The position numbers and the translations under genes are program-made. A stretch of DNA of 64,000 nucleotides from Selaginella tamariscina. Taxonomy: Eukaryota; Streptophyta; Lycopodiopsida; Selaginellales; Selaginellaceae. Each line of letters opens with the position of its first letter. The stretch's first letter is position 1. The DNA lies in contig PUQB01000282.1 of the NCBI GenBank assembly GCA_003024785.1, positions 184,369 to 248,368 of the forward strand. The letters run 5' to 3'. Shown in pieces: positions 1,067-43,311 of the stretch. The notes below the pieces were generated by a model, which did no database searches, was not told where the DNA came from, and worked only from the letters and a program-made list of their open reading frames with translations.

Positions 1067-1067
1067 G

Positions 1068-1089
1068 GGGTCTCGGCGAAAAGGAGGCT
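1068..1089 (+). repeat. Left terminal inverted repeat of MULE A
   Basis: GGGTCTCGGCG is followed by AAAAGGAGGCT. The reverse complement of the right end (8829-8850) begins GAGTGCCGCC and then carries TTTTGAGGCTT. The two ends agree at GxGT, at the CG-rich core and at the GAGGCT block. Degenerate short terminal repeats are common in MULEs. Confidence 0.65.
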
Positions 1090-1153
1090 CCGGCTCAAGA
1101 GGCTTATATTATTCTAGTATATTCGTAGATATTCAGTATTCTAGCATATTTCA

Positions 1154-1168
1154 AGAATATTCTAGAAT
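1154..1168. promoter_or_regulatory. Heat-shock-element-like repeat, left subterminal
   Basis: Three contiguous units AGAAT-ATTCT-AGAAT follow the nGAAn/nTTCn rule for heat-shock factor binding. The surrounding 1100-1170 contains more TATTCTAG motifs. The opposite end of the element carries the same pattern. The function is inferred only from motif shape, in an AT-rich setting. Confidence 0.4.
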
Positions 1169-1217
1169 ATATAAGTTTTTTAATTAATAATGCTGACTTT
1201 AATATATGCCGACTGGC

Positions 1218-4200
1218 TTAATAAAGCATTATCCTAAACCCTAAACCATTTATCCTTGTAGCATGAACTCTGCAATTCACCAGCAAACGGTGGACCTCCA
1301 TCTCACTGAGCGATCGCCTTTGTAGAAAATATGTGACGTCCGGGTTCAAGCCAAGCACACGGCTGTAGACGAAGTACATGTGTACACATGGGCTCCAACT
1401 TTTGCTCTTCTGAAAGGTAGAACAACTGCATGTAGGATAAGTACTAATAGTCACCTTTTGAGTCATTTCCTGCCGACACAACGAAAGCCTCCTTCCGTCC
1501 TCTAACTGTCACTTCAACATTTCTCACACGACCTAAAAACGTCTTGGCCTTGTGGAAATTCTTCTCTTGTTCCTTAGACATTTTTGTTGGAGTCCGGACC
1601 ATACGTCCTTCGAAAGGTGGAATTGTTGTAGATCCAGCTCCACGTGGTGGCGATGGTGTTTTGTCCTTCTGACCCTCATCTACTCTTCCTGCCGTCCCCT
1701 GTAAACCTTCCAGAACAAAGCCTGCATCCTGTAGTTCTCTGACCTCCTCACTTGTCAGCTTGTTTCCTTGAGCAAACCGTTGGTGGTGTTGGAATTCGTG
1801 ACTGAAGAATTTTGCCGTTTGGCCGCGTGAAACACCCTGAATCTTTTGGGCAGAACCACATCATCTGTTGTACATACTCCTCATTCCCCAAGGCATCAAT
1901 GTACATTCGTTTTCCATAGAATCCTGGTGCTGGCACTCTGCTTGGATAACCGATTGGTTTTCCACACAGAGCAGTTCCTTCCTGATTCATCCCCAAACAC
2001 TTAACCTTACTAGATGCTCCGATTCGTCTGATGGCCCACTCTGTTTGAGCAATCTCTCTCTCCAAAACCTCTTCGAACCTTAACCTCTTTCTCCTGTTGT
2101 TTTGGACCACCCGCTCTGTGTACTCTACATCATGTCTGTGTGAACGTCGAGCATCAGACTGTTCTGTTCCTGTGACTGTTCTCCTAACAGTTTGCACTCG
2201 AACGTTAGTGGTACTCGTGAACTCCGGGCTGGTCAAGTGTTCCTCGCCTTCCACCAGATTGATAATTGTTGATGGAGATACACTTTTCCCCTCAGAGAGT
2301 TTGCGTTGCACTCGTTTCAACAGAGTTTCCTTCGAAGGCCCTGACCCTGTATACCTCCCTTCTATTGCCGCTTTCACCTTCGCACTCTGCATAACTGCAT
2401 CGGTGAGGTCTAACATTGTCGCCTCCAGCAGTGGTACTCTTTTGGCCAATCTTGCTCTTCTTGCTCTCGCATGAATCACTTCAGCATTGTTTGTAGTTGG
2501 AACGCTCGCGAGTCCTTCTTCTGTCATGTCTCCCAGTTCCGCCATGGAGATGTGGTCCTCATGCCTGATCCACCAAGACAGCCATGTCTTCAAAGCTCGA
2601 ATGTTTGACGCTCGTCCTTCCCAAAAAGACTCGAGAATTGCTAGTTGTTCTTTCTTAGATTGTTCATTCAGTGCTGCAGGCCAGGCACGAGCAAGCTTCA
2701 TGTGTTCTTCGATGTTCGCGATGTTCTTCTGCGATCCATTTCTTTGTCACCTGACGCACGGATTGCATAAAGTGAAAAGACAGCTTCTTTCCCTCCCTTT
2801 CATTTTCTCCGTTGTTGAATACTTGGCGCAAGGCCTATCATCCGATCATGAAACCAGCAAAGTTGACATTCTCCAAACCCTTTCTTACAAACCTCTAGCA
2901 TTGTGTTCAAGAACTTCAGCACTGCAACATTATCTTCGCGGCACATATCTGCGTAAGCTATAGTCACCATGGATCTGACACTGTAAGAGAGCATTAGATA
3001 ACAAAGATTAGAAAGTGTTATGAAGAGTTTACAACTTACAATGGGTCATAAAGGTGTATTCCAATTGTCGCCCAGTCTGGTATATGGTGCGTGTGGTCCA
3101 GAACAACCCATTGATCATGAAGGTCTCCTCCACTTTGACACCTTCTGATGTAGTCAACTCCTGAACCCGGTCCCTCAACTGTCATTTTGAAGATCAGAGG
3201 CTGCTCCTCAGCACCATGCAGTTCCATCCCTGGAACATGTATGACGTGAATGAAAGGTATTGGCAACTTTGTCTTCAGCTCCAGAAGACCCTCGTAACCC
3301 TCTCTAAAGTGTGTCTCCTTCTGTCTTGATTGTGTAATCCAGTCCCGAGTCCTAAAGGAAAGGTCACGTCAGTGTGTAGAGATCTAAAGAAAAATACCTT
3401 CGATGGTTTGTAAGAGGTTCAAGTTTTGAGAGTAAACCAGTGTACGAGACTTCTCCTTCTTCCTTGAAAAGTTCTTCAAAGATGAGCTCACACGCAGCTT
3501 GAAACTCAATCACTCGTTGATTGGTTCGCGGACTGCTCTTTACCACGTTGCTGACACTAGATCTGGCACGCTGAACGTTTGAAGCTGACACTGAGGGGCT
3601 GACTGGATGCTGATGAACACCTCTGTGAATGAACAACCTTGTAAAAGAAATGTCGTCTGGCAGAATGTAGTACACATAAGCCGGACAAGTGTGCACTAGC
3701 AATGGCTCCTCTCCACAATGCTTACATTTCATGCCTATTACTTTGCCTGTCTCAGTTGTCTTTGCCTTCTCCACAGCACCCTTGAAGTGACATTCATTTG
3801 CTTTCTTCTCAAAAGCCAAGTAGGGGCAGGTAGGATTGATGCATTTGAGATGTCCGACACATGAACTTCGACTGACTCGCGCGGAACATGCCAGTGTGTT
3901 GTGCTCGGGTGTGTCCAATGGTAGCAGCCATCCTTGCGATTCATCCCCAAGTACTTCTCTGTGCTTTCTTTCTTTGGGGAAGTTCGTAAATGACATTTCC
4001 ATTGTATATCTGTGGTAGTTCAGAGACTCGTTTAACTTCAGACGAACCAATGAGATCCTTCCCTATCCTACATTTGTCTGCTCTTAGAAGACACACCAGC
4101 ATGGATTCCTCACGCTCCTTTGTCCGCAACCTGAACAACGGGCCCTTTGCCGGGCACAATGTGTAAAAGACAAACTGGTTTGATGCATTGCCTTCTGGTA

Positions 4201-4375
4201 ACAACTCCACATCTTCTCCAGAACTCGCAGAAACTGACATCAATTGAACCACATGTATACTGAACCAACAAGGAATGTTGAAAGCAAAGTGAAGATCATG
4301 TTCAAACACAAAAGCATTTCCATCTTCATCGACTGGGAAATCTTTGTCAATGCCTTCATAGGTAACTCTGGCCAT
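1218..4375 (-). pseudogene. MULE transposase with zinc-binding N-terminal region and SWIM finger (copy A)
   Basis: The gene starts at ATG 4373-4375 on the minus strand. In order it encodes an N-terminal domain of about 140 residues; a cysteine/histidine-rich region (CINPTCPY, MKCKHCGEE, HTCPAY) about 3640-3870; the DDE core, with first Asp in WVVLDHTH near 3090-3110; a CLFHF motif near 2770-2790 in the intact copy; a TTNNAEVIH glutamate near 2470; and a C-terminal SWIM finger (CSCSTFQ...CVHMYF) near 1375-1440. Exons are separated by short introns near 3360 and 3000. Compared with copy B, A has one-base losses near 3880 and 3950, and a deletion near 2825-2865 that removes the SDEAGAIW segment with the second catalytic Asp. 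It therefore should not make active transposase. Confidence 0.8.
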
Positions 4376-4886
4376 GACAACGCAAGGAGAAAGCTCGGTG
4401 GTTTAGGAAAGCAAAGCAAAAGATTAAACACACTCTCGTTCGCCAAAAAAAAATTATAATCGTTGATAATAAACGTGAATACACTTTTGTATATAATTAA
4501 TTCTACGCTGCCCAGCTCACAGTGTTCTTAATGCTGTCCTCTCTAGTATCACCGATTTAATTTAATTACTACCTTTTATGATTTGAAATATCTTCACCTT
4601 TACCAATTATTCACATATTTTAATATTAAACCCTAAATATTAATGTCACATTTATTCGTAGGGTTCACTTTTCATTGCGGCTAGGGTTTTTGGTAGATAG
4701 GGTTTACTGTTTCCACTGCGGCTAGGGTTTTTTCAATCTCAGATCTGAGTTCTGAAATCTCCTCCAAGGGGCTTGAGAGGAGCGGCGCCATCCATTTCGA
4801 GTCGATTCGTGCGCCCAAGTAAATCAATCGAGATTTCTGTGCCGATTTAGATTGTCGGCACCATCCTGCTCAGTCGGCGGCCACAA
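4376..4886. promoter_or_regulatory. Divergent intergenic region between the two MULE genes
   Basis: About 0.5 kb separates the transposase ATG from the first non-coding exon of the methyltransferase gene. It holds AT-rich sequence and then (about 4650-4740) nearly two copies of a unit of about 42 bp containing GCGGCTAGGGTTTT and GGGTTTACTGTTTCC. In copy B the unit is expanded to about three copies. A bidirectional promoter is inferred from the layout; no defined TATA box was assigned. Confidence 0.5.
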
Positions 4887-5455
4887 GGTATGTGCAATTT
4901 CTGTATTTTATGATTTGCGGCTCAAATAATTTATTTTTCAGAGATAAAGGGTCTTCCCATTTGTGCCGACTGAGAGTGACGGCACCATCCTGGTTCAGTC
5001 GGCAGCCACAAGGTATTTTCGATTTGTTTATTTTTTTCTTTGCGGCTCAAGTATCCGTATCACAATGTTTTTTTTTTCAGAGTTAATGTGTCTTCCCATT
5101 TGTGCCGACTGAGAGTGACGGCACCATCCTTCAGTCGGCAACCACAAGGTATTTTGAATTTGTTTATTTTTTGCTTTGCGCTCAAGTATTTCTTTTTTCA
5201 GAGTTAATGGGTCTTCCCATTTGTGCCGTCTGAGAGGGACGGCACCATCCTATCTCAGTCGGCACCATTATCTCTTCAGTGCCGTCTGAGAGGGTCGGCA
5301 AACTATCTCAGTCGGCAGGATTTGTTCTTCTACATCTCTGTGCCGACTGAGAGGGTCGGCACCATCTAGCTTGAGTCGGCAGCCACAAGGTTAGTCATCT
5401 TTGTTTTTTTTTTATTTTGTCTCCTAATCAATTGACTTGTGTGTTTGCTTTCCAG
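4835..5455 (+). repeat. Tandem mini-exon/intron array with GTGCCGAC hairpins
   Basis: The repeat unit is TTTTTTCAG|AGTTAATG..., a dyad segment, then CCACAAG|GTATTTT, so every unit carries its own acceptor and donor. Predicted mini-exons are 4942-5012, 5081-5148 and 5202-5389, preceded by an exon ending at 4887 and followed by the coding exon from 5456. Perfect 8-bp stems with a 7-nt loop lie at 5223-5245 (GTGCCGTC/GACGGCAC) and 5340-5362 (GTGCCGAC/GTCGGCAC). Several units contain a short upstream frame from AATG that ends at the TGA inside the dyad. Confidence 0.75.
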
Positions 5456-5465
5456 AGTTTACAAA

Positions 5466-8400
5466 ATGGTGAGAGCTTCAAAACGTCTACTAGAGACTGC
5501 GCCTGATGAAGAGCCACGGGAAGAGAAGAGGATATCGAAGCAGAAGCGAGGCAAGAGAGGAGAACCATCTAATGTAGCAAAGGAGGATCCTCCAGTGACT
5601 CAGTCTGGAGTAGTACCAGTTGAGCAAGAGCAGCCTCCATCAACCATCACAGATTTCCCGGAGAGCTCGTCGCAGTTGCCTCCTTCATCCGCTGAGGTTG
5701 CAGTCCTGAACGAGCAAGTGCAGATGACAGAGGCAGTTGAAGCTAGCGAGGACGACTTGGAGGAGGCAGTCAGCAAAAAGAGAGGCCGGGAAAGCTGATC
5801 CAAAAGGCAAGAAGGCGAAGAGCGATAAGGAGCCGAAGGAGTTATACAGCATACCGGCTAGCCTGCATTTGGAGAGCTCAGCAAACCTGCTCGACAAAAT
5901 TATTGTCAAGGGACTTGGTGATCCTCCTGATGTGCCCATCTGTAGAATGCATTGAACGAGGTGGTTCGACGAGTGAACCCAGGGGACTTGGACAGGCTGG
6001 TGTCATCGTTGAAGAAGGCTGGTTATCTACGCAACACGGCCTTGTTCATTCTGTCCATCGGAGATCGACTCACTGCTGAGGAGCTATCGGAGCTGTCGAA
6101 GGACACGTTCAGTACGAGCAGCACCGGTCTTTCGAGCAAGCTCTTACTCAGCCGGAGTACAAACAGTGGGCTTCAAGGCTCTCAAAGGAAGTTAGCTGCT
6201 GGGACGGGAACCATAGGCTACAGGCTTTGCAGAAGCTGTACCGGAGGATGCAGAGGACAACCAGCGATGGGCTATTCGCGTTCGATCGAGTTTCATCTCC
6301 ACGGAGAACCTCGACAATCTTCAACTGGTTTCGATGTTCCAATCGATTAACATGTGAGTATTTTCTTTTCTTTTTGTTAAGAGTTAGACTTACAGTTTCG
6401 TTGAACAGATCTTCAGCAACATCTGTGGAAACAACGCTACCACATATTCTCCTCGCTGTAAAGGCGGTCTGCACTAGTACGAAGGAACTCAGAAAATCCT
6501 CGAGTCACTCACGGAGGTTGATCGTCTTGAGGTGCGGAAGTGGAAGGAGAGTTCAACAGGAAAGACGGCTTGGCATCCTCTTCCGAACCTGATCTGCGCA
6601 AAGATCCTTTTCAAGGTAACCTCCGATTTGATTTATAGGAAAGAAGTTTTTAACTTATTCTATGTGCAGAACGAGATCGACGATGATCTCGACAGAGCAG
6701 TCACCAGTGCTAAGGGCAATCCACAGGTTGAGTGAACCTGAAGCAGCTAGTGTACAAGAAGCATGACAAATGCACAAGTTCCTCTCCATCATAGACCCAG
6801 ACTTGGGGGAGGAGTGGTTCCAGAAGGTGACGAACATCTCTCATAAGCAGTGTCGCTGGATGGGCATTGAGAAGCTGTATGCGATGTCAAAGGCGAAGAT
6901 TCCAAACATGCTGCGACTCCGATACTTGAACAAGCTCACCCGTCTCGAATCCAAGGCAGAACAACAGACACTTGGGCTACCAGGCATGCAGGACAAAGAG
7001 TGGATCAAGTGGTTCACCTTGGACTTATATTGGAAGGCTGTGCGCGAGGAAGCCATTCAGATCCTTAAGGGGTTGCGAGAGGATGGTGAAGAAGTTGGAA
7101 CGGATGTCGACTTCATGAGCTGGTTTGACGAGATGCGAAACTCGGAGCAAGTGCCTGGTCTTTCAGCCCTTCCATGACTGCATACGGTTCACTTATTCGA
7201 TGGAGCCGAATGAGTTTCTGGAGCGTGAGGAGTCTGCGCGTCGGATGATATGGAGGTAAGCTTTCATTCCAGCATTGCTACTGTCTGACTTTGTGTTACA
7301 GGTTCATACTGGCGAAGAAAATGGCACCGTCCAGACGATGAAGCTGTGGACAGATCATACAAGCGAGCCTCACATGTGGTCGAAGAGCAGAGGAGCTCTA
7401 ACACCGTTCGAACGGGAGCATGTTCCATTCTGGCTCGACTCCGTCGCAACAGCCACCAGCTTGGGAGAGCTCACTATTCGACGTGCAGCAATGATCTACC
7501 AGCGATTGTTTGGGAGCCGGAGAAGTAGAGGCTATCAAGAAGAGCAAGATGAAGAAGACGGTGCGGAAGACAACTACACCTGCAAAGGGATCGGGAGCGG
7601 GACCAAGCTCTTCTACAGCACCTCCGCCGGCAATCGACTTTACAATCAATGAGGTGCAGCCACTTGTAGCTAGTTTGGACATCAAGGACGACCTGATGAC
7701 CTTCATCCCGACCCTGGCTGCATCCCGTGGATCCTACGACCTGGCTGTGTGCGATATGGAGGAGATGAGCAGGTCTTTCTTCGAGCCGGGTGCTTCCCAG
7801 ACAGAGGTGTACACCAAGCTCCGACAACAGGTTGACAGACTACATACGGTTGAGTCACAAACGTGTTCCAGGAAGTGGTAGGTGAATACGGCTTCAACCT
7901 CATCATCCTCGACTTGCCCAATGAGCTTGTATATGGAGGTGCTAGCATCAACAAGGACATTGTGCAGCTAGATCCGGTGAAGTTTGAGGAGGCCTTGCAG
8001 TTCAGTGGAATGCACTTGGCAGCGAGTGGTTTCATGGTCGTCTTCGCGAGTTCTCCTTCTGTTTCGGCGGTGATTCAGGCGGCTGCAGTAATCAACTTGG
8101 AGGTTGCAGGGACTTACAGCGTCTACCGTGCACGAGGCTGGGGATACCGTGACAAAATTAAGGTAAGCTAGCTATTCAAGTTCAAGTTTAACTTGGTCTA
8201 TGTGGCAGGATAACTTGTTAGTTCTCTTGGTGCTGCAAAGCTCTGAGAAGAAGTCGAAGAGGCCAAACCCTCTGGCGTTGACGAACACGATCCTCGTCGA
8301 CACGCCGACCGTTTCAGGAGGCTTGGTAAGGAAGTACTTTGCTTTGTTTATCCTAATGGAAGTTTGTGCAGGATGATGATTCAACCGAAGAGTGTTCGAC

Positions 8401-8645
8401 TCATGCAGCTTTTGATCGAGCGTCTCAGTAGACCTGGCGACCTAGTCTGGGATATTGGTTCCGGAACCGGGTCATCGTTGTTAGCTGCCGTCGAGCTCGG
8501 AAGGAATATTATAGGAACCGAGAAGAGTTTCGAACTCTCTAGGTTGGCAACAAACAAGCTCGCAGAGAACATTAGACCAGAGGAATTACCTACTCAAACA
8601 CCTCCACGTCCAAGCTACTGGTGGTTCGAGAACTGCAGCTTTACT
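5466..8645 (+). pseudogene. ParB-like domain plus beta-class-type DNA N4/N6 methyltransferase (copy A)
   Basis: ATG 5466-5468 follows an acceptor at 5451-5455. The product begins with a Lys/Glu/Pro-rich, nuclear-type tail. A ParB-like region (about 5840-6350) ends in the signature CWDGNHRLQALQ near 6198-6235, matching the GxHRxxA box. Next come a helical middle region (6660-7250), a basic linker (7510-7630), and a methyltransferase domain with LIILDLPNELVYGG at the DPPY position (about 7902-7940) and QPKSVRLMQLL...WDIGSGTGSS...GRNIIGTEKS at motifs X and I (8385-8530). This IV-then-I order is the beta-class arrangement. Introns of about 45-65 nt lie near 6355-6410, 6616-6669, 7256-7302, 8163-8208 and 8325-8373. 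One- or two-base losses near 5787, 5946, 6112 and 6246, relative to copy B or expected frame, break it. DLPN replaces DPPY, so activity is uncertain. Confidence 0.72.
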
Positions 8646-8777
8646 TAAGATGAAGAAGAAACTTTAGCTAATGTATATTGAGTAATAAATTAAGCTAATA
8701 AAAAAAGAATAAGATAGAAATACAACAGTTTTACTAGAATTCTTTTTTGCCGACTGAGGCCAATACTGCCGACCAAA

Positions 8778-8802
8778 AGAATATTCTAAAATATTCTAGA
8801 AT
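8778..8802. promoter_or_regulatory. Heat-shock-element-like repeat, right subterminal
   Basis: AGAAT-ATTCT-AAAAT-ATTCT-AGAAT gives four good units out of five in one phase. It mirrors the left subterminal block of the same element. A GCCGACTGAGG motif shared with the internal mini-exon array lies just inside at 8749-8759. Confidence 0.4.
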
Positions 8803-8828
8803 ATTTGAGCCCAGGCCTCCTGGGCCCC

Positions 8829-8850
8829 AAGCCTCAAAATGGCGGCACTC
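8829..8850 (-). repeat. Right terminal inverted repeat of MULE A
   Basis: The sequence ends ATGGCGGCACTC and is directly followed by the AATCTGTA target duplication. Copy B ends with the same bases at 56545. Confidence 0.65.
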
Positions 8851-10007: not shown

Positions 10008-10038
<31 letters not shown>

Positions 10039-10558: not shown

Positions 10559-11061
10559 ATGGCTACCCTTGTCCTGGATTTGGACAACACCTTGATCTTT
10601 GGAGATTGTAAAAGGCCGGGTGTGGACGAATTCATGGAGCTAATGAGCAAAGATTACGAAATTGTTGTTTCACGAGGAATACAAAGGAGCGGGCGGATAG
10701 AATAGTCAACACTATCCTTAATGCGAAGCACAAATATGTTAGCAGGTGTTTCTACCAGGATTCTTGTGTAGGGCATTGCAAACCGCTTCAAGTGTTGGGC
10801 CTCAAAGATCTCAAGAGAGTGGTGATGATCGATGATGACCCTAGGAGCTATGCTTGTAACCAGGACAATGCTTTGCCTATTTCCCCTTTCTCAAGCCTGA
10901 CACTGGAGAGAGAGGAGCAGGAGAAGAACTTGCTTAAGCTGGTGCCGCTTTTGTTGCAGATAGCATCCCTTGAGGATGTGAGGCCTGCCTTAAAGCAGTG
11001 GAAGGAGGAAGCACAAAGGGAGAAGGAGGCCGCATTCTTGCGTGCCAGATTTGGTTATTGA
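10559..11061 (+). pseudogene. FCP1/SCP-type HAD phosphatase domain gene, frameshifted
   Basis: Starting at ATG 10559, the reading contains LVLDLDNTLI, the canonical DxDxT nucleophile motif of FCP1/TFIIF-interacting CTD phosphatases. After a single-base frameshift near 10668-10672 the frame continues to VVMIDDDPRSY near 10816-10850, the second acidic HAD motif, and ends at TGA-equivalent 11059-11061. Total length is about 165 residues, little more than the catalytic domain, as in small CTD phosphatases. Family members dephosphorylate RNA polymerase II tails or other phosphoproteins. It lies between a microsatellite tract and the 5' part of transposon copy F, on the same strand as that transposase. 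Without the frameshift both acidic motifs would be intact. Confidence 0.7.
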
Positions 11062-11330
11062 ATATAATATTAATATCAATGTTATAATGGCCTGTCAACA
11101 CTTTTATTGAATAAATAATGGTTCCCATGGGAATTTCTAGATTATGTCATATTATAAAATCGCCATTCATTCAACAGCAGAATGAGTACTAACTGATTCT
11201 TTCTTGGTTATTGAGTATAATATTAATATCAATGTTATAATGGCCTGTCAACACTTTTATTGAATAAATAATGGTTCCCATGGGAAGTTTTAGATTATGT
11301 CATATTATAAAATTGCCATTCATTGAAGAT
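11055..11330. repeat. Direct repeat of about 115 bp in the 3' region of the phosphatase pseudogene
   Basis: The segment from TTGGTTATTGA through TGGTTCCCATGGGAA to the ATTATGTCATATTATAAAAT stretch occurs at 11050-11165 and again at 11206-11322 with few differences. It starts at the last codons of the phosphatase frame, so the duplication includes the gene end and its trailer. Confidence 0.8.
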
Positions 11331-12087
11331 AATGTATATTAATTTAATATTGATAATAAGGTTTAACATAGGAATATTCTTGAAATAATAAGAAATTAAT
11401 TAAGAAAATCCCATTAATATATACAAATGTACAATAATTACTAAAATAATTAAGAATAAGACTAATTTAATTATGATAATCATGTTTAATATTGGAATAT
11501 TCTTTAAATATTAAGAAAATAATAAAGAATATCCACATTAATAGTAGGAAATGTAAATTAATTACTCAAGTAATTAAGAAAATAATAATAATAAACAGAC
11601 TATGAATATATTTGAAATGATACATAATAATATATCAATTTATTTATTGTATAAGTATATTTATATAATATAAACTTAATAATATATACTTGAATATTAA
11701 AATGTAGAATAATTCTTAAAATTTCGTAATATTAAACAGCTTGAATCACTTGAATAACATTAAATATAATTTTATAACACTCATTGGAATTGAAGTATAT
11801 ATGTCAGAGTGTCGGTTATTTGTGTCGACTCATCTTAAATTTTATTTTTTATTCAAAAATTTTAAATTTCTAACATAAGTATTGTCGGTCTGACATGTGA
11901 ATTTGAAAATGCATTTAATTTCCCACTCAAATTCAGATTTGGTTCTTTGTTCGGCAAGGGTTTTTTCATTTCTGTAATTTTCACTCTTCAGATCTTCTTT
12001 TTTCTTCATAGTGATCAGCTCAGGAGCGACATTAAATTGGGTGTTATTGTTTATAAGAAAGCACGGCGCCTTCAATGCTGTTTACAA

Positions 12088-12997
12088 GTAAGTATTATAA
12101 ACAAATTTAGATATACTTATAAAGATTCATTCTCTTACTTCTCTTACATTAAAATTTAGGGGTTTAGGAATGCATTAGGATTACAATATATTCCGTTAGG
12201 GATTTATCCCGTTTAAATATCCTTCTAATTTAATATTCTCGATTAACTGGGGCGGCGGGATTAATTCGGCCATTTCTTTTTCGCCTTTTAGAAGAGGTGG
12301 CGAGATTAATCCCGCCACCATCTCTTTAATACCTATGGCAGAATTAGTTTGGATAATGCTTCTCCGCCTTTGAAAAAGAGTGACGGGATTAATCCCGCCG
12401 ATAACTCTCTCAATTGATAAAGAATTACTTGAATTTATTAGAAAGAGTTGTCGGCGGGATCTTTGTGGACATGATTTATCTCGAGATCTCTTTGAAATTA
12501 TAGCTTCGGAGAGAGTTGTGGGCGGGATTAATCCCGCTACCTATTCCCTGTCGTAAAAGTTGTGGATGGGATTAATCCCGCCGCCTCTTCCTCGTCAGAG
12601 GGAATTGCGGCGGGATTAATCCCGTCGCTTCTTCCTCGTCAGAGAGTCCGCAGCGGGATTAATCCTGCCGATTCTTCCTCGTCGGAGGGAATCGGCAATG
12701 GGATTAATCCCGCCGACTCTTCCTCGCCGGAGGAATTGGCGACGGGATTAATCCCGTCAACTCTCTCCGAAGGGGTAGAGTCGGCAACGGGATTAATCTC
12801 GCCCACCGTTCCTCATTGGAGGGAGTCGTGGACAGGATTAATCCCGCCCATCAGTTGTATTAATCAAGCATGAGATATTATCTTTATACATAATTATGTA
12901 TTATTGCACATGCATATTATTAAGCAACCGCAGTTCAGATTTCTTAGAAATATTGCATAAATAAATATCATAAATAACACAATTATTTATGTGTAGG
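12088..12997 (+). promoter_or_regulatory. 5' intron of transposase copy F holding the palindrome array
   Basis: A donor-like ACAAGTAAGTATT lies at about 12085-12097. The acceptor ATGTGTAG at 12990-12997 directly precedes GACAATATGTTTAATACTGG, where coding begins. Copies E and the old copy carry the same pair of sites. Confidence 0.55.
12245..12860. repeat. Array of GGCGGGATTAATCCCGCC-type palindromes (copy F)
   Basis: About a dozen copies of the 18-bp palindrome occur, mostly with one to three changes (GACGGGATTAATCCCGTC, GGCGAGATTAATCCCGCC and similar). The spacing is irregular at 40-60 bp. The array is more decayed than that in element E. Confidence 0.85.
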
Positions 12998-13001
12998 ACA
13001 A

Positions 13002-15320: not shown

Positions 15321-15326
15321 AAAATT

Positions 15327-17371: not shown

Positions 17372-17388
17372 AAGAATAGTTATTCCGG

Positions 17389-18660: not shown

Positions 18661-18679
18661 GTATATTCCCCTATGTTTC

Positions 18680-33000: not shown

Positions 33001-33198
33001 CCAAGTTGATTCCAGAATCCCCCTGCCCATCTCTTCTCCTGCTCTTGACTTTAATGTCACCTCAATTCCACATCTGAATACAAAAATGATTAGTTCAAGT
33101 ATCCGAGTATAACAGATTTTATTTTAATTCTTACCCAGAATTTGACGACGACTCCATACTAATGACTCGATCTCCTTGTTTGATCAAATCGTCCTTCT
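30051..33198 (-). CDS. ParB-like domain plus degenerate DNA methyltransferase-like protein (element E)
   Basis: Exons on the minus strand: about 33198-33137, 33074 to about 31755, 31693-30847 and 30800-30051. The product's central part has a ParB-like fold pattern: VKYCSVNPNFNYRPLNQERV and YYIISGQHTITAAQRLLEEH (residues about 258-350 of the second exon), where GQHT stands for the GxHR box. After a lysine-rich linker follows LLLDSETLWGN at the methyltransferase DPPW position (near 31010), EDLVEKL, and finally AWVFDYCTRGSVLKECYLRHTCVFAVEKD (30480-30390) at motif I. Motif order IV then I equals the beta class. Both catalytic motifs deviate, suggesting a DNA-binding pseudoenzyme. The acidic tail is rich in Ser/Glu. 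An apparent one-base frameshift lies near 31880. Confidence 0.62.
31694..31754 (-). other. 61-nt intron with the element palindrome at its centre
   Basis: Donor GTAAGC and acceptor CTCAG bound a 61-nt intron on the minus strand. GGCGAGATAAATCCCGCC at 31721-31738 matches the array palindrome with two changes. No other palindrome lies in this gene. Confidence 0.6.
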
Positions 33199-33299
33199 GC
33201 AAAATAATACACTATAAATATAAATTATATAAAAACGCACACACACTTGTATAAACCCGAATATACAAAAATAATACACAGAGAGAAGTAGACGTAATT

Positions 33300-33386
33300 A
33301 ACTGTCCGAAGCTCACATTTGTGTTAGTGCAAAAGAAAGATAACATTTCGTTTTAGAACCACCACAAATGTGAGCTCTGGACAGTT
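33300..33386. repeat. Hairpin of two 24-bp arms
   Basis: AACTGTCCGAAGCTCACATTTGTG (given as arms 33300-33323 and 33363-33386; the core is GCTCACATTTGTG) pairs with two mismatches around a 39-nt loop. It sits just upstream of the ParB-methyltransferase exons. It could be a tiny inverted-repeat element or a small-RNA hairpin. Confidence 0.7.
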
Positions 33387-33489
33387 TTACATAGATTCCT
33401 AGCTTTTACTCGAAATAATATGAAGAGATGATAAAAGTAAATAAAATGAGATATGCAACTTATATATACTAATACACATATATATTCAC

Positions 33490-35050
33490 ATGGAAGGTGC
33501 GGCGGGATTAATCTCGCCACCCCTTCAATGCCTCCTGAAAGAGTGGGCGGGATTAATCTCGCCACCTTTCTGGAGGCCTTGAACGGGAGTGCGGAATTAA
33601 TCTTGCCACCCTTCTCGGTCTCAGAGAGAACTGGGCAGGATTTATTTCTCACACCCCTTCAGTGACTCCAGAAAGGAGGCGGGATTAATCTCGCCCACCA
33701 TGTAAGGGATGGTTAAATGAATCTCGCCACCCTTCCCAGTCCCCTCCATTGGTATGTTGTAAACCTTCTACGTCTTAGACAGAAACGTTTGGGATTGGTC
33801 CAACTCACCAATGGAGGAAAAAGGGAAGGGTGGCGAGATTCATTTCTCCAACAGGCATTGAAGACTCGGCGGGATTAATCCCGCCGCCCAGGGCCTTCAC
33901 TCGATCCCTATGCGGCGGGATTAATCCCGCCGGACGCCAATTCCCTGCGCGGAATCGGGCGGGATTAATCCGCCGCCTAGGCACTTCAGGCAGGCCAATG
34001 GCGGCGGGATAAATCCCGCCCGATTTCGCACAGGGCATTGGCGTTCGGCGGGATTAATCCCGCCTCCCAGGCCCTTCACTCGGGCCTTAGTCGGCGGGAT
34101 TAATCCCGCCGAACGCCAATGCCCTGTGCGAAATCTTGCGGGATTAATCCCGCCGCCTAGGCCCTTCAGGCAGGCCAATGGCGGCGGGATAAATCCCGCC
34201 CGATTCCGCGCAGGGCATGCGTACGCGGCGGGATTAATCCCGCCCACCATGTAAGGGATGGTGAAATTAATCCCACCACCCTTCTCGGTTCCCTCCATTG
34301 GTATTTTGTAAACCTTCTCCGTCTCAGACAGAGTTAGTGGGATTGATTCAACATACCAATGGGGTAATGAAGGTTCGGGATTAATCTCGCCACCGGGTAA
34401 TGAAGGTTCGGAGGCTAATCCCGCCGCCCTCTCGTAAATCATGCGCTCACACATATATATTGGCTGCGGCATTTTTGAACAGGGATGGGTGGGGGCGGGA
34501 TTAATCCCGCCGCCCAGGGAATTCACGCAGGACATGAACGGCGGGATTAATCCCGCCGCCCTCCGCGAAGGGCATGAGCGTGGGGCCGGATAATCCCGCC
34601 GTTCATGTCCTGCGTGAATTCCCTGGGCGGCGGGATTAATCCCGCCGCTCTACGACAAACCGAAGAGCGGCGGGATTAATCCTGCCGCCCATTCCCTGTA
34701 AATGCCCTGCGCGGAATCCGGCGGGATTAATCCCGCCCATTAGAACCTTCACACAGGCCATTGCCGGCGAGATAAATCCCGCCGCATTCCGCGCAGGGCA
34801 TGGATGAGCGGCGGGATTAATCCCGCCGCCGAGGCCCCTCACGCAGGCTATGGGCGGCGGGATTAATCCCGCCGCTCTTCGGTTTGTCGTAGAGCGGCGG
34901 GATTAATCCCGCCGCCCATAGCCTGCGTGAAGGGCCTCGGCGGCGGGATTAATCCCGCCGCTCACCCATGCCTGAAGGGCCTCGGCGGCGGGATTAATCC
35001 CGCCGCCATGGCCCCAACTATATAGCGGCGGGATTAATCCCGCCGCTCGA
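33490..35050. repeat. Palindrome array of left arm of element E
   Basis: About 25 copies of GGCGGGATTAATCCCGCC, roughly 15 exact by eye. The rest differ by one to three bases (AGATTAATC, GATAAATC forms). The spacing is mostly 40-50 bp. Spacers also repeat in inverted form: CCCAGGGAATTCACGCAGGA at about 34515 recurs inverted at about 34600. The array lies upstream of the minus-strand ParB-methyltransferase gene. Open frames rich in GLIPP or GGINPA are translations of the repeat. Confidence 0.9.
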
Positions 35051-35742
35051 GGGGCTTAGCGAGATAAAAACACACACATATATATATGTGTGTGTATATA
35101 TATATATATGTATGTATGTATGTATGTATAGGAGTGTACGTGTGTGTGCAAGAGATAGATAAATAAATAAACTTATACAGTACTGGTACACCTAATATAT
35201 GTGTGTACATAGGTATATATATGTGTGTATATGTATATCGTGTGTATGCGTGTGAGCGAAACAAATAAAATCATACAGATAAACAAACACACACACACAC
35301 ATATATATATACACAGGAGTGTGCGTGTGTGTGCAAAAGATAAAACTAATAAATAAATAAAATTATACAGATAAACACACACATATATATGTGTGTATAT
35401 AGATATATAATCTATAGAGAAAGAGAGAGAGTCTGTGAATATATAAGCATATATATAAACTAGTGTTGTATGTATGTATATATGTATATAGGTATATATA
35501 TATGTGTATATGTATATTGTGTGTATGCGTGTGTGAGCGAAACAAATAAAATCATACAGATAAACAAACACACACACACACACATATACATACACAGGAG
35601 TGTGCGTGTGTGTGCGAGAGATAAAACTAATAAATAAATAAAATTATACAGATAAACACACACATATATATATGTGTGTATATTATGAATATATAAGCAT
35701 ATATATAAACTAGTGTTGTATACTATTTGTTAATATGCATTG

Positions 35743-35779
<37 letters not shown>

Positions 35780-35862
35780 GTGTGTGTGTGTGTGTGTGTG
35801 TAAAGCAGTGCGCGTGTGTGTGGGAGAGATAGATCAATAAAAAAAAATTTACAGATACTGGT

Positions 35863-35941
<79 letters not shown>

Positions 35942-36161
35942 GCAAGATCAATAAAAAAAATTTACAGATACTGGTACACATAATATATGTATGTATATAT
36001 GTATATAGGTATATATATATATATGTGTATATGTATATCGTGTGTATGCGTGTGTGAGCGAAACAAATAAATCATACACACATATACATACACAGGAGTG
36101 TGCGTGTGTGTGCGAGAGATAAAACTAAGAAAAAAAATTATACGCACACTCCTATACATAT

Positions 36162-36192
<31 letters not shown>

Positions 36193-36235
36193 GATCTCAC
36201 CTGTGTGCACAGCCGCCGCCGCCGATTTCACAGCC
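35050..36235. repeat. Central microsatellite region of element E
   Basis: Long (TA)n, (TG)n and (CA)n runs occur, with tandem blocks of about 200 bp (35240-35450 and 35520-35720 share CGAAACAAATAAAATCATAC). A GCCGCCGCC run closes it at 36210-36240. No gene. Confidence 0.85.
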
Positions 36236-36565
36236 GCCGCCTCTTGAAACCCTAAGAATATACCTAAACCCTAAAGGAATTAAATATATATATCAACCCT
36301 AATAGAATATTCCTTCTGAGAATATACTTAAACCCTAAAAAGAATAAAATATAGATTCGCCCTAAACGAATATTCTTTCATTATATTATTAGCGCGTGCG
36401 TGTGTGGGTGTATCACATACACCTCAAAAATATAAATCATGCAGGGATTTAACATGTGTGTGTCCATGAGAGTGTTAAAGTTTCATGTGTACACATTGCA
36501 TATATTAATACACATAATATATACATACACACGTGTATACACACAGACATACACACATATTACAT

Positions 36566-36590
36566 GGGTTTAGGGTTTAGGGTTTAGGGT
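36566..36590 (+). repeat. Interstitial telomere-like TTTAGGG repeats
   Basis: Three to four TTTAGGG units in tandem; the plant-type telomere unit. Confidence 0.8.
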
Positions 36591-37035
36591 TTTGGATTTA
36601 GGATGGATCATGCATGGTGTGTATGTATGAGAGAAGAGAGAGTGTTGAAAAATTATTTTTGTACACATTGCATATATTAGTACACATATATACTTACACA
36701 TATTATACACAGATATACATACATAGTATATGAGAGAAGAGAGACAGTACATATTAATATGGATCATGCATGGTGTGTATTATACACACAGACATACATA
36801 CATATTAGTACATAATATTAGAGAGACCGAGTACATATTATAGATCATGCATGGTGTGTATGTTTGAGAGAAGAGAGACAGTACATATTAACATGGATCA
36901 TGCATGGTGTGTATGTATGAGAGAGAAGACAGAAAGTACACATATATACATACAGAGTACACATATATACATGCACACGTGTATACACACAGACATACAT
37001 ACATATTACATGAGTAAATTCATTGTGTTACATAT

Positions 37036-37072
37036 TAGGGTTTAGGGTTTAGGGTTTAGGGTTTAGGGTTTG
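37036..37072 (+). repeat. Interstitial telomere-like TTTAGGG repeats
   Basis: Five contiguous TTTAGGG units followed by TTTGC. The old copy carries a shorter inverted counterpart (CCCTAAA) near 47135-47155, so the tract belongs to the transposon family. Confidence 0.85.
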
Positions 37073-38502
37073 CTCCCAACAAGCTTAATATAAATATTAC
37101 ACATGTAAATTCAATGTGTTACATATACACAGATTGAGTACATATATCATACATGCGTTGAACATGATGTTTTCAATAAAGAAGCAACATATTTCTTCAG
37201 TTTGGTTTAGGGTTGTGCATGTGTGTGCATATGTGTTTTTGTAAGTTCTTGTAATGCGTGTGTAAATTTATGATTGTGTTTATATATGTGTGCAAAACAA
37301 ACATCGAATAATTAAGAAAATAAAATTAATAAACACACTAGGAACATATTTTAAATTATACATAATAATATATGATTTTATCTAATATATAGCCATATAT
37401 AGTTTTAATAATATATATTAATTTAATATTGATAAAAAGGTTTAACATTGAAATATTCTTGAAATAATAAGAAATTAATTGAGAAAATCCCATTAATATA
37501 TACAAATGTAAATTAAGTACTCAAATAATTAACTAAATTAATTATCATAATCATGTTTAATATTGGAATATTCTTGGAATAATAAGAAAATAATAAAGAA
37601 TATCCCATTAATATAAAGAAGATTAATTACTCAAGTAATTAAGGAAATGATATTAATATATATATTATTAAAACTATATATGACTATATATTAGATAAAA
37701 TGATGTATTATTATGTATAATTTAAAATATGTTCATAGTGTGTATTAATTTAATATTGATAATAAGGTTTAACACATGAATATTCTTGAAATAATAACAA
37801 ATTAATTGAGAAAATCCCATTAATATATACAAATGTAGAATAATTACTGCAATAATTAAGAACAAGACTAATTTAATTATGATAATCAGGTTTAATATTA
37901 GAATATTCTTCAAATATTAATAAAATATTAAAGAATATCCCATTGATACTAGGAAATGAAAACTAAATACTCGAGTAATTAAGAAAATAATAATAATAAA
38001 CAGACTATGAATATATTTTAAATGATACATAATAATATATCAATTTATTTATTGTATAAGTATATATTTATATATATATATATAATATAAATATACTTGA
38101 ATACTAAGAATGTAGAATATAGTCTAAAATTTCGTAATATTAAACAGCTTGAATCACTTGAATAACATTAAATGCAATTTTAAAATACTCATTGGAACTG
38201 GAGAGTATATATGTCAGAGTGTCGGATATTTGTGTCAACTCATCTTAAATTTTATTTTCTGTTCTTTTTAAAAAATTTGAATTTCTGACATATGTATTGT
38301 CGGTCTGACATATAAATTTGAAAATGCATTTAATTTCCCACTCAAATTCAGATCTGGTTCTTTCTCCGGCAAGGGTTTCTTCATTTCTGTATTTTTCACT
38401 CTTTAGATCTTCTTTTTTCTTCATAGTGATCATCTCAGGAGCGAGATTAAATTGGGTGCTATTCTTTATAGGAAAGCACGGCGCCTTCAGTGCTGTTTAC
38501 AA

Positions 38503-39678
38503 GTAAGTATTATAAACAAATTTAAAAATACTTATTAAGATTCACTCTCTTACATTCTCTCTTAAAATTACAATTTAGGGGTTTAGAAATGCATTAGGAT
38601 TATAATATATTCCGTTAGGGATTTATCACGTTTAAATATCCTTTTAACTTAATATTCTAGGTTAACCGGGGCGGCGGGATTAATCCGGCCATTTCTTTTT
38701 CGCCTCTTTGAAGAAGTGGCGGGATTAATCCCGCCACCATCTCCCGGGCAATGCTTCTCCGCCACTGAAAAAGAGTGGCGGGATTAATCCCGTCGATAAC
38801 CTTCTCAACTGATGAAGAGTTACCAGAATTTATTAGAAAGAGTTGTCGGCGGGATTAATCCCGCCAACCATTTTAGGAGGCAGGGAAGGGGTGGCGGGAT
38901 TAATCTCGCCACCACTTCACTGTTTTAAAGATTTGGGGACAGGATTTATCCCGAGATCTCTTTGAAATCATAGTTTTGGAGAGAGTTATGTGCGGATTTA
39001 ATCCCGCCACCCATTCCCCGTCGTAAGAATTGTGGGCGGGATTAATCCCGCCTTGGACTCCCTCCGACAAGGAAGAGCCGGCGGGATTAATCCCGCCGCC
39101 TCTTCCTCCGACGAGGAAGGGAGTCCGGCGGGATTAATCCCGCCGACTCTCTCCGGCGAGGATGAGTCGGCGGGATTAATCCCGCCGGACTCCCTTCCTC
39201 GTCGGAGAGAGTCGGCGGGATTAATCCCGCCGGACTCCCCCGAGGAGGAGAGGCGGGATTAATCCCGCCGGACTCTCTCCGAAGGGGGAGTCGGCGGCGG
39301 GATTAATCCCGCCGGACTCTCCTCGTCGGAGAGAGTCGGCGGGATTAATCCCGCCGGACTCCCCCGAGGAGGAGAGCGGCGGGATTAATCCCGCCGGCTC
39401 TTCCTTGTCGGAGGGAGTCCAAGGCGGGATTAATCCCGCCGACTCTCTCCGAAGGGGTTGAGTCGCGGCGGGATTAATCCCGCCGACCGTTCCTCGTCGG
39501 AGGGATTCGTGGGCGGGATTAATCCCGCCCATCAGTTGTATTAATCAAACATGAGATATTATCTCTAAACATAATTATGTATTATTGCATATGCATATTA
39601 TTAAGTAACCGTAATTCAGATTTCTTAAAAATATTGCATAAACAGATATCATAAATAATACAATTATTTATGTGCAGG
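38503..39678 (+). promoter_or_regulatory. 5' intron of the element E transposase
   Basis: Donor-like ACAAGTAAGTATT at about 38500-38512 and acceptor TTTATGTGCAG at 39668-39678 bound about 1.17 kb. The palindrome array lies inside. Both sites are conserved in the other two copies. Confidence 0.55.
38665..39530. repeat. Palindrome array of right arm of element E
   Basis: About 19 copies of GGCGGGATTAATCCCGCC, some 15 exact by eye. From 39033 to 39527 twelve copies follow at intervals of 39-47 bp (close to four helical turns). Spacers are variants of GACTCTCTCCGACGAGGA in alternating orientation, so the whole block is a nest of palindromes. Confidence 0.92.
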
Positions 39679-39684
39679 ACAATA

Positions 39685-42600
39685 TGTTTAATACTGGAGA
39701 TAAAGTATGTCTTCTTCGGAACAACGAGATAGTTGGCACTGGAACTGTGGAAGTTCGAGATAATAATGCATCATGTCACAATATTTCCCAAGGATCTTGT
39801 GTGTACGTATGGGTGAACACCATTTTCAAGCATGTTGAGGTTCTGGGAATGGAATTTGAGGAGGGTTCTCCTGTATTGTGGAATTTGGATGAAGTCAAGG
39901 CTGACACAAAATATGCAGAGTCACAAACAAATAGTAGCACGAGTTTACCAGATGATGGCTTGCCTGCTGTGATGGATGAGGTGATTCTCTTTCTTCGTGA
40001 GATTGAAGTCGGAAGAGGCATCATCACAGCTATAAATCCAATGGAAGCAGTGTCAGAAGAGAAACTAGGGTCCGACTTCGTGGGTGTAGTTGTGACAGAG
40101 GTTTCACCTAATGGCACATTGTATCCTGGATCCCTCGTGAGGTGGCGAACATCTGAATTAAGACGGCAAGATGGTTCAACATATTCTGGGTTGGATTTCA
40201 ATAATAACAACCCGGAAGAACAACTCATATTTGAAGAGGTTCCTTGCATTGGTCCTATTGTAAGAAAAAGGCGATTCATGGGTTGTAGATCTTCCCCTGC
40301 AAGTTTCAGCAAGAGGGTAAAGATGGATCCTACATCTTCCGAAAGTGTTACGAGCATTTCCACGATTGACTGTTGCAAGAAGAAGTGTTGTCAGATGGCA
40401 GACCGGAATGAAATTACCCAATGTAGACATGTCTTTCGTATGCTCACCCAAAAGCAAAGGCATGAGTTTGTATATGCTGCACTAACTGGGTTATTGATGG
40501 AATGGCCTCGGAACACAGGTTATCAGAGTACATCCATGGTATTTAATAAGGTGGCCATCTGCTTCAAAGCTTGGTACAGTATATACGGGATCCCAAAGAC
40601 CACGTTCTACCGTCGGAGGGATGAGTGGCTAGATGGAGCGCGAACCTCAGTTCATGGGAACACTCGCTTGGTCAAAACCCGCTCTCACATCATGGCAGCC
40701 ATAGAGATACTCAAGGCTTTTGTGGAAGCAAATGCAGACAGGATGCCTCACAAATGCCGAACCACAAATGCAGGGGTCAGGGAAAATCTCAAGGTTTTAC
40801 CTTCAATCTACACTCAATTGAAACTGTGTGAACATGTGAACAAGTGCCTCAGTTTGATGGGGCTCCAAGCAATCTGCACTGGTACCTTCAACAACATATG
40901 GAATACTCATTTTAAGGATGTGGAGATTGCAAAACACTCTAGCTTTTCTAAGTGTGACACTTGTACATCATTGAAGGCTGCAGAGGCTTGTGCAAAAACC
41001 TTGGTGGAGATCACTACCATTCAAAGGAAGATGGAGGCCCACATGATTGCACAACAAACTTGTCGGTCTCAGTACTATGCACACCGCATGCTTTCTGTGT
41101 CACGCCCATCAGAGTACTGTGCTTGATCCATGACAAGATGGATCATTCAAAGACCAGCATTCCAAAGCTCTTTGCAACACCAAAGTGCCTTGGAAATGTC
41201 ATGAAACTTCCGATTTCTTTAACAGGTGTGCTAACACATGGACACGGTTGTGAGTCATATGGACACTTTTCACTTCCACATTGGTCTAGCGACTCCAATT
41301 TCACTATTGGGTCGTTAGCCATGTGTTTCAGAAACCTTGAAGCCCACTCACAGACAACTCCTATCAGTGATCTCAAAGTGAAGAAACAACACCTTCAACC
41401 TTTACATAATGCTCTCATGAACACGTCTGCACTTGAGGCTACTTGGGAATATGAGAGGCATTGTCAGCAACCTGCACAAAAAACAGATGGCCCTGTTGAG
41501 AGTTCAGGTTCAGTGGAGGGATCTAGCTCAAATAGTGTACATGTGTCCTCAACATCAAATAAGCTTCCTCGTCATTTGCTTTTACAGATGGATAATTGTG
41601 CAGGCGAGAACAAAAATAGGTAAATCATTTTACTTAAGGGTTTCTCAAGCTCATACTTACTTTTATTTCTAGATATGTGCTAGCATACTTGTCAATGCTT
41701 GTTGCCAAAGGTGTGTTTGAAACAATCACGCTCAGTTTCCTTATGGTTGGTCACACTCATGAAGATATTGATGCGTTCTTCAGCAAGGTCTCCAACTCTA
41801 CAAAAAGGACAAGTGCACTTACCTTACCGCATATGATGAATCTTTTTGAAAATTGCATCTCCAAAAAAAGTTGTGCTTTGCTTGTGACTGAGGTGCCAGA
41901 CTTCAAAAAATTTCTCAAGGAGTATATAAAAGAAGGGAGTGATTCTTTAGTTGGTCACCTTGTGCCGCTACAATTCTTTTTCTCCATACGAGATGGTATA
42001 CCTATTATGCAGTACAAGTTACGGCCATCAGAGCAGGAGTGGTTACCGAAAGAGGGCTTAATGCTCTTCAAAAGTGGAGAGGATGGAAAGCCACTTCTCC
42101 CAGAAGGACAACCAGACCCTATTCCATTGAGTGCCCAGCTCAAGGAACAAGAGGTTATTATTGATGGCATCAAAAAATATGTGGCATGGGTTCAAAAATC
42201 GATGCCAAAGAATTCTGATAAGGCAACTGGTTACTCAGAACTATATAAGCATGTGGTCAACTATTGGGAGACTGTTGTTCGAGAGTTGGAAGGGCCTACT
42301 GTCACAAGTACAGAATTGCAACACCCTTTCTGGCCTAAAACAAGGTGGCGAGAGGAGATTGAAATGACATCACTGAGCACAGACGACATAGAAGCCAGTA
42401 GTGATGTGGAAGTGCAAACCCCACACTTTGTTGGACAAAGGAACCAAAAACCTAAAGCATACTTTGATTGCTGCAAGGATCTTCAAAAACTAATGATGGT
42501 TCTCATTACTCCAGATGCGTCATATAATCAGCCTATTTGGATGGGTCAAATTATCGACACACCTGAAGTAATCACAAAAAATAGTATTGTTAAGGTTGCA

Positions 42601-42819
42601 TGGTTCAAACCACAAAAAAGGCGACACGAGAAGGAGAGCGAAAGATATAATGGATGCCTAGAGAAAACATGGTCTCCCAATCAAAAAGACCCAGCATGTT
42701 TTATAAATGTTAAATCCATTCGATATGGGTGGATGTCAAGAAGCGTTGATAAAGTCACGATTAACAAACTGCAAGGGAATGTATGTTTTCTGAAGCTTAA
42801 AGCAATTACAAAATTATAA
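39685..42819 (+). CDS. DUF7869-like putative DDE transposase of element E
   Basis: Coding begins at ATG 39685 after an acceptor at 39678. The N-terminal part (FNTGDKVCLLRNNEIVGTG) is a beta-rich domain of unknown role. A basic/HTH-like and Cys-rich region follows (CCKKKCCQMADRN near 40375; CDTCTS near 40955). The core has LIHDKMDHSKTS (about 41122-41157), LLQMDNCAGENKN (41579-41617) and MVGHTHEDIDAFFS (41742-41783); I take these Asp/Asp/Asp-Glu positions as the candidate RNase H-like triad. A 54-nt intron splits NKNR|YVLAY at 41620-41673. One base is missing near 41117 relative to copy F, so this copy is frameshifted. Total is about 1,000 residues. Proteins of this type are widespread in plant and oomycete genomes but poorly described. 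Confidence 0.72.
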
Positions 42820-43307
42820 AATATCATATATTTAATATTCATAATTATTATAAACTCTTTAATAATAGTACCAAATTGTATACTTAACTATATAAATTTA
42901 AAAAATGATATGGAAGATTGACTATATTATTATAGGATTTTATATATATATTATTACTACTACAAATTTTTAATTAATAATGTTATATTTAAATATTAAT
43001 ATTTTAATAACAACATCAATATTTATATAATGTACCTCTTATGCTCTTCCTTAATTGTTATATTAGGCAATATATTATATAATTTAATACATTCTACTTT
43101 TTTAATGTTATTAATTTTTGTTCAATGAATGCTATAATTTATTAAAGGGTAGAATACAAAATAGAATATTCTAAAGAATATTCTCTTTTCAAACATATAT
43201 TCTAAAGAATATTCCTTTAATATTAGAAAATGCTAATTAAATAGCTAAAATTGCTAATTATTAGGAAATGGGACTATAGCCATGCCCATTTTAGTTACAA
43301 CTTGCAT
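42820..43307 (+). repeat. AT-rich trailer and right terminus of element E
   Basis: AT-rich, with AGAATATTCTAAAGAATATTC (first 20 bases at 43163-43182) and AGAATATTCC near 43206. The terminal repeat is at 43281-43307, ending AGTTACAACTTGCAT. Confidence 0.8.
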
Positions 43308-43311
43308 TCAT

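Follow-up and report, generated by a model that had tools for sequence, protein, structure and literature searches.

What acts on the arrays of GC-rich palindromic sites that two unrelated kinds of transposon carry between their genes is the question raised by a 64,000-nucleotide stretch of the Selaginella tamariscina genome (the window; C596:184369-248368), from which genome-wide searches were taken over the 300.7-Mb assembly. A self-comparison of the window revealed two copies of one Mutator-type element (MULE-I) and several copies of a large element with a DUF7869 transposase, here called Sola-like. An earlier note on this DNA had described a transposase gene and a second gene lying divergent in both kinds of element, with dyad arrays in the 5' non-coding parts, and both statements were borne out by the layout of the open reading frames (ORFs). 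The simplest account from sequence would be that the arrays are bound by a protein that the element encodes, most plausibly the accessory protein. An autonomous element would then consist of two head-to-head genes, one for the transposase and one for an accessory protein that binds DNA and is descended from ParB/methylase proteins, with the palindrome arrays between them and upstream of both. The accessory protein would bind the palindromes as a dimer, with many copies along an array, and would keep the divergent promoters active; most likely it would be a sequence-specific factor in anti-silencing or autoregulation, comparable to VANC at the motif arrays that VANDAL MULEs carry, and would act in trans for non-autonomous copies retaining the array. 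We give this joint reading, in which the accessory protein binds the arrays, sustains the promoters and acts in anti-silencing or autoregulation by analogy with VANC, about an even chance; the accessory protein as the binder, its dimerisation and the anti-silencing outcome are what we infer from the evidence below.

The Sola-like element is a full-length DNA transposon of 15.0 kb at 28316-43307 with a DUF7869 transposase, a ParB-like gene and two dyad arrays. Its terminal inverted repeats (TIRs) were located at 28316-28341 (- strand, 24/26 identity to the right repeat) and 43282-43307 (+ strand, 26 bp), and it is flanked by a target site duplication (TSD), TCAT, at 28312-28315 and 43308-43311, the empty site being given by the older copy that it interrupted. 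The end at 43307 had been called correctly and is that of the right TIR; because the other end of the element is 28316, the range 1067-43307 previously assigned to the shared architecture also covers unrelated DNA and other copies. A second, independent full-length copy, C147, was collinear with it, at 98.9% in one segment (11.3 kb) and 97.8% in another (4.1 kb), and has the TSD ATTT, so that both Sola-like insertions examined have a 4-bp TSD. The accessible text of PMC10741241 describes the Sola superfamily as having 4-bp TSDs, TIRs of 11-1124 bp and sizes mostly of 2-9 kb with some above 15 kb. With its 4-bp TSD, 26-bp TIRs and 15.0 kb the DUF7869 element fits Sola (PMC10741241, PMC3627910, in the parts accessible), a placement that rests on TSD, TIRs and size, the transposase ORFs (39642-42819, + strand) having matched among profiles only Pfam DUF7869 (PF25273, E 1e-26). 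No paper naming DUF7869 was found among open-licence papers.

The 18-bp dyad GGCGGGATTAATCCCGCC, allowing up to 3 mismatches, was matched 67 times in the window against 0.00 expected from shuffles. Sixty-six of the matches fell in arrays at 12254-12848, 33501-35044, 38673-39529 and 44401-45190, mostly spaced by 44-46 bp, and one was intronic at 31721. In the full-length element, array A1 (33501-35044; 27 dyads at up to 4 mismatches) lies upstream of the accessory gene, while array A2 (38673-39529; 18 dyads at the same threshold), which has inverted symmetry as a whole, lies 3.6 kb away, upstream of the transposase. The lone dyad in the accessory-gene intron (31721-31738, + strand) was present in 30/30 loci viewed and in C1248, a diverged copy. 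Perfect GC-rich palindromes 18 bp or longer numbered 33 in the window, and every one lay in a Sola-like copy; the MULE-I copies had none, nor did the 21.5 kb not assigned to any listed element. A search of IMG/VR returned one stretch with an isolated dyad, which was taken as chance.

The dyads behaved as conserved units. Major-allele frequencies in A1 and A2 were 0.94-0.97 in dyads and 0.47-0.50 in linkers, and mismatch between the window and C1248 (A2/A1) was 0.050/0.053 in dyads and 0.227/0.251 in linkers. Dyads therefore diverged 4.5-4.7 times less than linkers in this one diverged copy, a comparison in which 103/324 (A2) and 184/486 (A1) dyad positions were gapped. A1 and A2 have the identical 18-bp dyad despite unrelated linkers, whose match between the arrays (8.17) was close to that of shuffled linkers (7.85, standard deviation (SD) 0.33) and was 19.3 and 17.2 within arrays. 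It is improbable that the arrays are neutral or selfish minisatellites, in which slippage and template switching expand the palindromes and recombination flips the linkers with no protein bound. Such an origin would agree with best linker partners found in both orientations (A1, 7 forward and 13 reverse; A2, 9 forward and 7 reverse), as recombination between neighbouring palindromes would permit, with the potential of A2 to form a single long hairpin (z -29.9; MULE-I array, z -6.6) and with its variable number of dyads (18 in the window, 20 in C147 and 11 in C1248), but it leaves unexplained the same dyad in two arrays with unrelated linkers, the additional site standing alone in an intron, and a half-site kept between MULE arrays that cannot be aligned. 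If transcribed, the A2 hairpin would be a source of double-stranded RNA. C>T or G>A changes made up 17/24 and 18/19 of those in the ten commonest dyad substitution classes of the window's two decayed arrays, as would be expected after cytosine methylation.

The MULE family has its genes in the same order around a different array. The two MULE-I copies were 91-95% identical by main segment; copy a (1068-8850) is decayed and aligns to 48270-56545, which is copy b. In copy a, transposase exons at 1218-4402 (- strand) are followed by the array (4838-5382) and by a frameshifted ParB-methylase-like gene at 5436-8648 (+ strand; motif IV DLPN, motif I DIGSGTGS), and the array of copy b is at 53110-54210. 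MULEs (Mutator) have TSDs of 7-12 bp in the accessible text of PMC10741241, and that of copy b, the one insertion examined, is 9 bp with one mismatch. No Mutator or SWIM Pfam match was obtained on the scanned transposase ORFs of the window or of L080, the one complete element of a second subfamily that was read; MULE was kept as a working label because of the 9-bp TSD and a SWIM-like C.C...C.H pattern seen by eye in the transposase. The earlier description of the MULE array as a dyad, GTGCCGAC...GTCGGCAC, was right in that GTGCCGAC was enriched (13 in the window against 0.60 expected, all within 4854-5362 and 53158-54081), but the array is a tandem unit of 63 to 139 bp carrying the half-sites TGCCGACTGA and TCAGTCGGCA and not a clean dyad.

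Relatives of the MULE methylase-like gene gave at least 150 matches in the genome (150 scored of 739 candidates). Twenty of these loci were read, eight belonging to the window subfamily (MULE-I) and twelve to the second, abundant one (MULE-II; 71-75% identical over 75 residues). In L080 the order of transposase, array and accessory gene is that of MULE-I, and the transposases of L080 and MULE-I have 71% DNA identity over 1.1 kb. The L080 array holds eight perfect 22-bp palindromes, CCCAGTCGGCATGCCGACTGGG, every 39-40 bp, together with degenerate copies, and CCCAGTCGGCATGCCGACTGGG has 1092 exact sites in the genome against 0 for the reversed control. Though the arrays of MULE-I and MULE-II do not align, they have the half-site TGCCGACTG in common, with 7, 11 and 18 matches in three arrays (shuffled means 0.00-0.02) and 2 and 1 in the rest of the elements. 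Of the GCCGAC or GTCGGC occurrences in the 8.9-kb L080 locus, 23 fell in the array and 3 outside it. GCCGAC is the DRE/CRT core that DREB/CBF factors recognise, and the MULE arrays might on that ground be stress-response enhancers captured as sites for host transcription factors. We regard this as very improbable, since the conserved MULE-II unit is a longer 22-bp palindrome and not an isolated GCCGAC, and the Sola-like dyad is without GCCGAC.

Arrays and accessory genes recurred together elsewhere in the genome. Per-locus counts for the ParB exon, the array probe and the methylase are among matches scored, which were the best of longer candidate lists. Thirty Sola-like ParB-exon loci were fetched and an array was present within 1.5 kb upstream in 29, the thirtieth (L032) reading N at that place. 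Methylase matches with the MULE-II-typical 106-residue ORF on contigs C1-C112 had an array 3.15-3.33 kb away in 6/6 cases (C10, C58, C69, C72, C90 and C112, five of them classed by ORF length and score). Approached from the palindromes, nine MULE-II clusters on the first contigs listed included six with a methylase match 3.15-3.33 kb downstream.

The Sola-like accessory gene is read from the - strand. Exon 1 (31834-33123) encodes a transposase-like N-terminal stretch and then the ParB-like motif SGQHTITAAQ (from 32055 downwards), and the ORFs with exon 2 (30836-31750) and exon 3 (30051-30872) contain, respectively, a motif-IV-like position, VMDRRV, and a motif-I-like FDYCTRGSV. The window exon 1 is frameshifted near its end, and 478-residue open-frame copies occur elsewhere in the genome. 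Exon 1 was matched in 98/98 scored candidates (6574 at first look), with no stop within the match in 89/98. Ratios of nonsynonymous to synonymous differences (pN/pS) against C1248 were 0.23 for the ParB part, 0.16 for exon 2, 0.43 for exon 3 and 0.53 for the N-terminal part; pooled over 13 mostly very close copies they were 0.31, 0.15, 0.47 and 0.94. The pattern is purifying in the central and C-terminal parts, and on these ratios the central parts look constrained while the N-terminal part is not clearly so.

Whether the accessory proteins could methylate their own arrays depends on their methylase parts. The C-terminal part of the MULE accessory protein is, by its sequence matches, a relative of beta-class N4/N6 DNA methylases, having matched Pfam N6_N4_Mtase (PF01555) over the motif X/I region (E 1.1e-8 for MULE-I and 7.5e-10 for MULE-II) and phrog_67 (2e-10). 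The earlier name ParB-methyltransferase holds to this extent for the MULE gene, but the Sola-like gene was without methylase signal and its ParB assignment is by motif only. Motif I is intact in the MULE protein. The catalytic motif IV of beta-class methylases is (D/N)PP(Y/F/W). It reads DLPN in all four copies read, three of MULE-I (window copies a and b and L081) and one of MULE-II (L080), against DPPY, DIPY or DLPY in six phage relatives, and with the aromatic residue lost, methylation by the MULE protein is doubtful. In the Sola-like protein, methylase profiles from Pfam, PHROG and the phage relatives gave no signal; with the last of these, at least 20/500 shuffles scored above the Sola-like segment, which was not among the rows listed, and the motif-IV-like place reads MDRRV both in the window copy and in C1248. 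The term methyltransferase is therefore not supported for the Sola-like protein, save by analogy with Sola1 of Ectocarpus. It has been suggested in the accessible text of PMC12477816 that such a protein may mark its own element, which would here require methylation of adenine or N4-cytosine in or near the dyads. The N6_N4_Mtase match, the intact motif I, the 51-75% identity (by part) between MULE-I and MULE-II accessory proteins and the prediction of N4-methylcytosine or N6-methyladenine formation by the Ectocarpus protein (PMC12477816, same text) speak for such marking, but given the degenerate motif in the MULE protein and its undetected counterpart in the Sola-like one we consider it quite unlikely. 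Modification of the dyads, which the earlier note had offered beside recognition, was not supported by this comparison, and dyad methylation is an unlikely mechanism for the proteins as they stand.

Several results weigh against the binding and anti-silencing role proposed for the accessory protein. The 30 ParB loci were 99-100% identical and include the window itself, and are therefore nearly one observation repeated. The expected association of gene and array held at the 29/29 readable ParB loci and the 6/6 MULE-II-type matches but at only 7/40 of the array-probe loci listed, for which a ParB exon was scored within 8 kb; no such exon was scored in that range at the other 33, so that the array is retained in copies without a scored gene. 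These loci may be non-autonomous or truncated, or may carry a ParB copy that went unscored. The MULE-II clusters on C1, C13 and C132 had no scored methylase match within 4 kb among the matches listed. Concerted evolution could account partly for dyad conservation, and C1248, on which the divergence estimates are based, is itself decayed, with one stop and several frameshift indels. The Sola-like accessory protein shows little constraint in its N-terminal part, where pN/pS exceeds 1 in several copies.

The identity of the Sola-like protein adds to these difficulties. It had no significant Pfam, PHROG, PDB or protein-database match, and ParB_N of Pfam gave 0 matches genome-wide (a control was matched in 10/14). 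The loop motif of the ParB/Srx fold is GxxR/GxH-A, and the motifs of this type, SGQHTITAAQ and CWDGNHRLQAL, were found by eye; ParB is thus for the Sola-like protein a motif reading (GxH...A) only. The ParB-region score of the Sola-like protein was equalled in 12/1000 shuffles against MULE-I, a weak result, and in 325/1000 against MULE-II, and BLASTP between the Sola-like and MULE accessory proteins gave E 0.89; beyond the weak ParB-region score the two are not detectably related. Two structure predictions (predicted local distance difference test scores of 33.5 and 50.9) were not used. ParB_N was without a Pfam match in the Sola-like, MULE-I and MULE-II proteins. Searches for homologues of the Sola-like and MULE accessory proteins scored 7993 and 7999 candidates, none of which reached E 0.01; with Sola-like exon 1 as the only query, none of 5032 scored reached E 0.1. 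The Sola-like ParB segment had no match in phages, the best E of the MULE ParB segment in plasmids was 0.3, IMG/VR loci for the transposase exon and the ParB exon were not confirmed, and PDB sequence searches returned nothing relevant.

The 33 array loci without a scored accessory exon would be accommodated if the transposase itself bound the arrays, as transposase sites or autoregulatory operators, with the accessory gene uninvolved. The transposase also has a stretch of about 50 residues near its N-terminus in common with the accessory protein (score 60; shuffles mean 31.0, SD 4.8, 0/500 as good), and a gap of 113 bp separates the end of A2 from the transposase ORF. The Sola-like arrays, however, are 3.8 and 5.2 kb from the element termini and are not subterminal, the second array lies upstream of the accessory gene and one dyad lies in its intron. 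TnpA of CACTA/EnSpm elements binds arrays of short sites that are subterminal; the arrays here are central, between divergent genes. We judge binding by the transposase alone to be unlikely and retain the accessory protein as the candidate binder. Bacterial ParB recognises palindromic sites (parS) as a dimer, and a parS-like system may be imagined in which ParB-derived proteins in at least two unrelated superfamilies load private palindrome arrays at head-to-head promoters and spread as a non-catalytic self-recognition mark that keeps the methylase-derived domain, with protein and palindrome changing together (GGCGGGATTAATCCCGCC in the Sola-like element, CCCAGTCGGCATGCCGACTGGG in MULE-II). This extension is tentative and less likely than not; unlike in bacterial ParB-parS, the ParB_N profile was unmatched here and a partition role is not part of the evidence.

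To our knowledge, the escape of plant transposons from silencing is understood in few cases, of which VANC is the best known. The VANC proteins of VANDAL MULEs are, by analogy, the closest working precedent for the role proposed. In the accessible text of PMC5735166, the transposon-encoded anti-silencing protein VANC21 of VANDAL21 recognises short tandem motifs in the non-coding parts of its element, and VANC-type motifs differ between related transposons. The likeness lies in motif arrays in non-coding parts, known here from sequence alone; the VANC21 motif (YAGTATTAY) is non-palindromic, unlike the dyads, and VANC is not called ParB-like in that text. The accessible part of PMC12477816 describes Sola1-1_Ec32 of Ectocarpus, a large Sola transposon with a ParB-like plus N4/N6 methylase gene on the opposite strand, and its authors propose that a transposon may be bound, and its epigenetic state altered, by the protein of this type that it encodes; the same text attributes reports of ParB-methylase accessory proteins in green and red algal DNA transposons to Iyer et al. 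2011 and Petroll et al. The layout is the same as that found here, but a palindrome array is not mentioned there for Sola1-1_Ec32, and the elements studied here differ in a methylase part that is degenerate or undetected and in the MULE family with the same layout. Calling this an undescribed system was therefore too strong; as far as that text goes, the accessory genes and the self-marking idea were already known, and the tie to palindrome arrays would be the new part. No literature linking ParB-methylase accessory proteins to palindrome arrays was found among open-licence papers. These families, rich in near-identical copies, provide candidate pairs of protein and site. They also suggest on what cis sequences the ParB-methylase accessory proteins of algal transposons might act, with the caution that binding, and not methylation, may be what some of these proteins do.

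The full-length Sola-like element sits within an older copy of the same element, which runs from 47656 down to 43308 and resumes from 28315 down to 25673. The 3' part of this older copy lies at 25673-28315 and its 5' part, with its own decayed array (44401-45190), at 43308-47656 (both - strand). A separate mobile unit at 40628-43307 was ruled out, as the TIRs show a full element nested in the older copy. A third Sola-like copy (11329-15826, + strand) has an internal deletion, a decayed array (12254-12848) and an intact right terminus. In a DUF7869 control set (150 of 4250 candidates scored) two further loci were read and both were of the window's Sola-like family. One (C869, L082) has retained A2, and the other (L083, C633:254700-259200) is a deletion derivative in which the left 1.15 kb of the element is fused to the 3' part of the transposase, with no array within the 4.5 kb viewed. 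Deletion copies without array or gene thus exist, as seen in C633. A 963-residue DUF7869 ORF was also present in a cyanobacterial metagenome-assembled contig (CADCWO010000071.1; L008 1822-2256) and would reflect a contaminant or a transfer.

Other features of the window included an ORF with an NLI-interacting-factor/CTD-type phosphatase domain (28605-29819, - strand; Pfam PF03031, E 1.1e-11), apparently cargo of the full-length Sola-like element, and a phosphatase-like ORF recognised by eye at 10612-11061 (+ strand) near the deleted copy. Scans for RNA families and tRNAs found none. TTTAGGG-type short repeats were present, with telomere-like TTTAGGG runs in the central Sola-like element at 36566-36602 and 37035-37071, as were Ty3/gypsy-like ORFs by eye; together the short repeats and these ORFs give the window a plant-like look. 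In MULE-I copy b (48270-56545) the internal inversion (50658-55673) is clean relative to copy a, with breakpoints within the transposase and the methylase part, and a paralogous stretch at 17849-18967 provides its empty site. The host sequence of this copy has cyclin-like ORFs by eye at 48018-48296 and 56548-56865 (- strand), and AAACCCTA-type repeats are located within the copy at 54344-54463.

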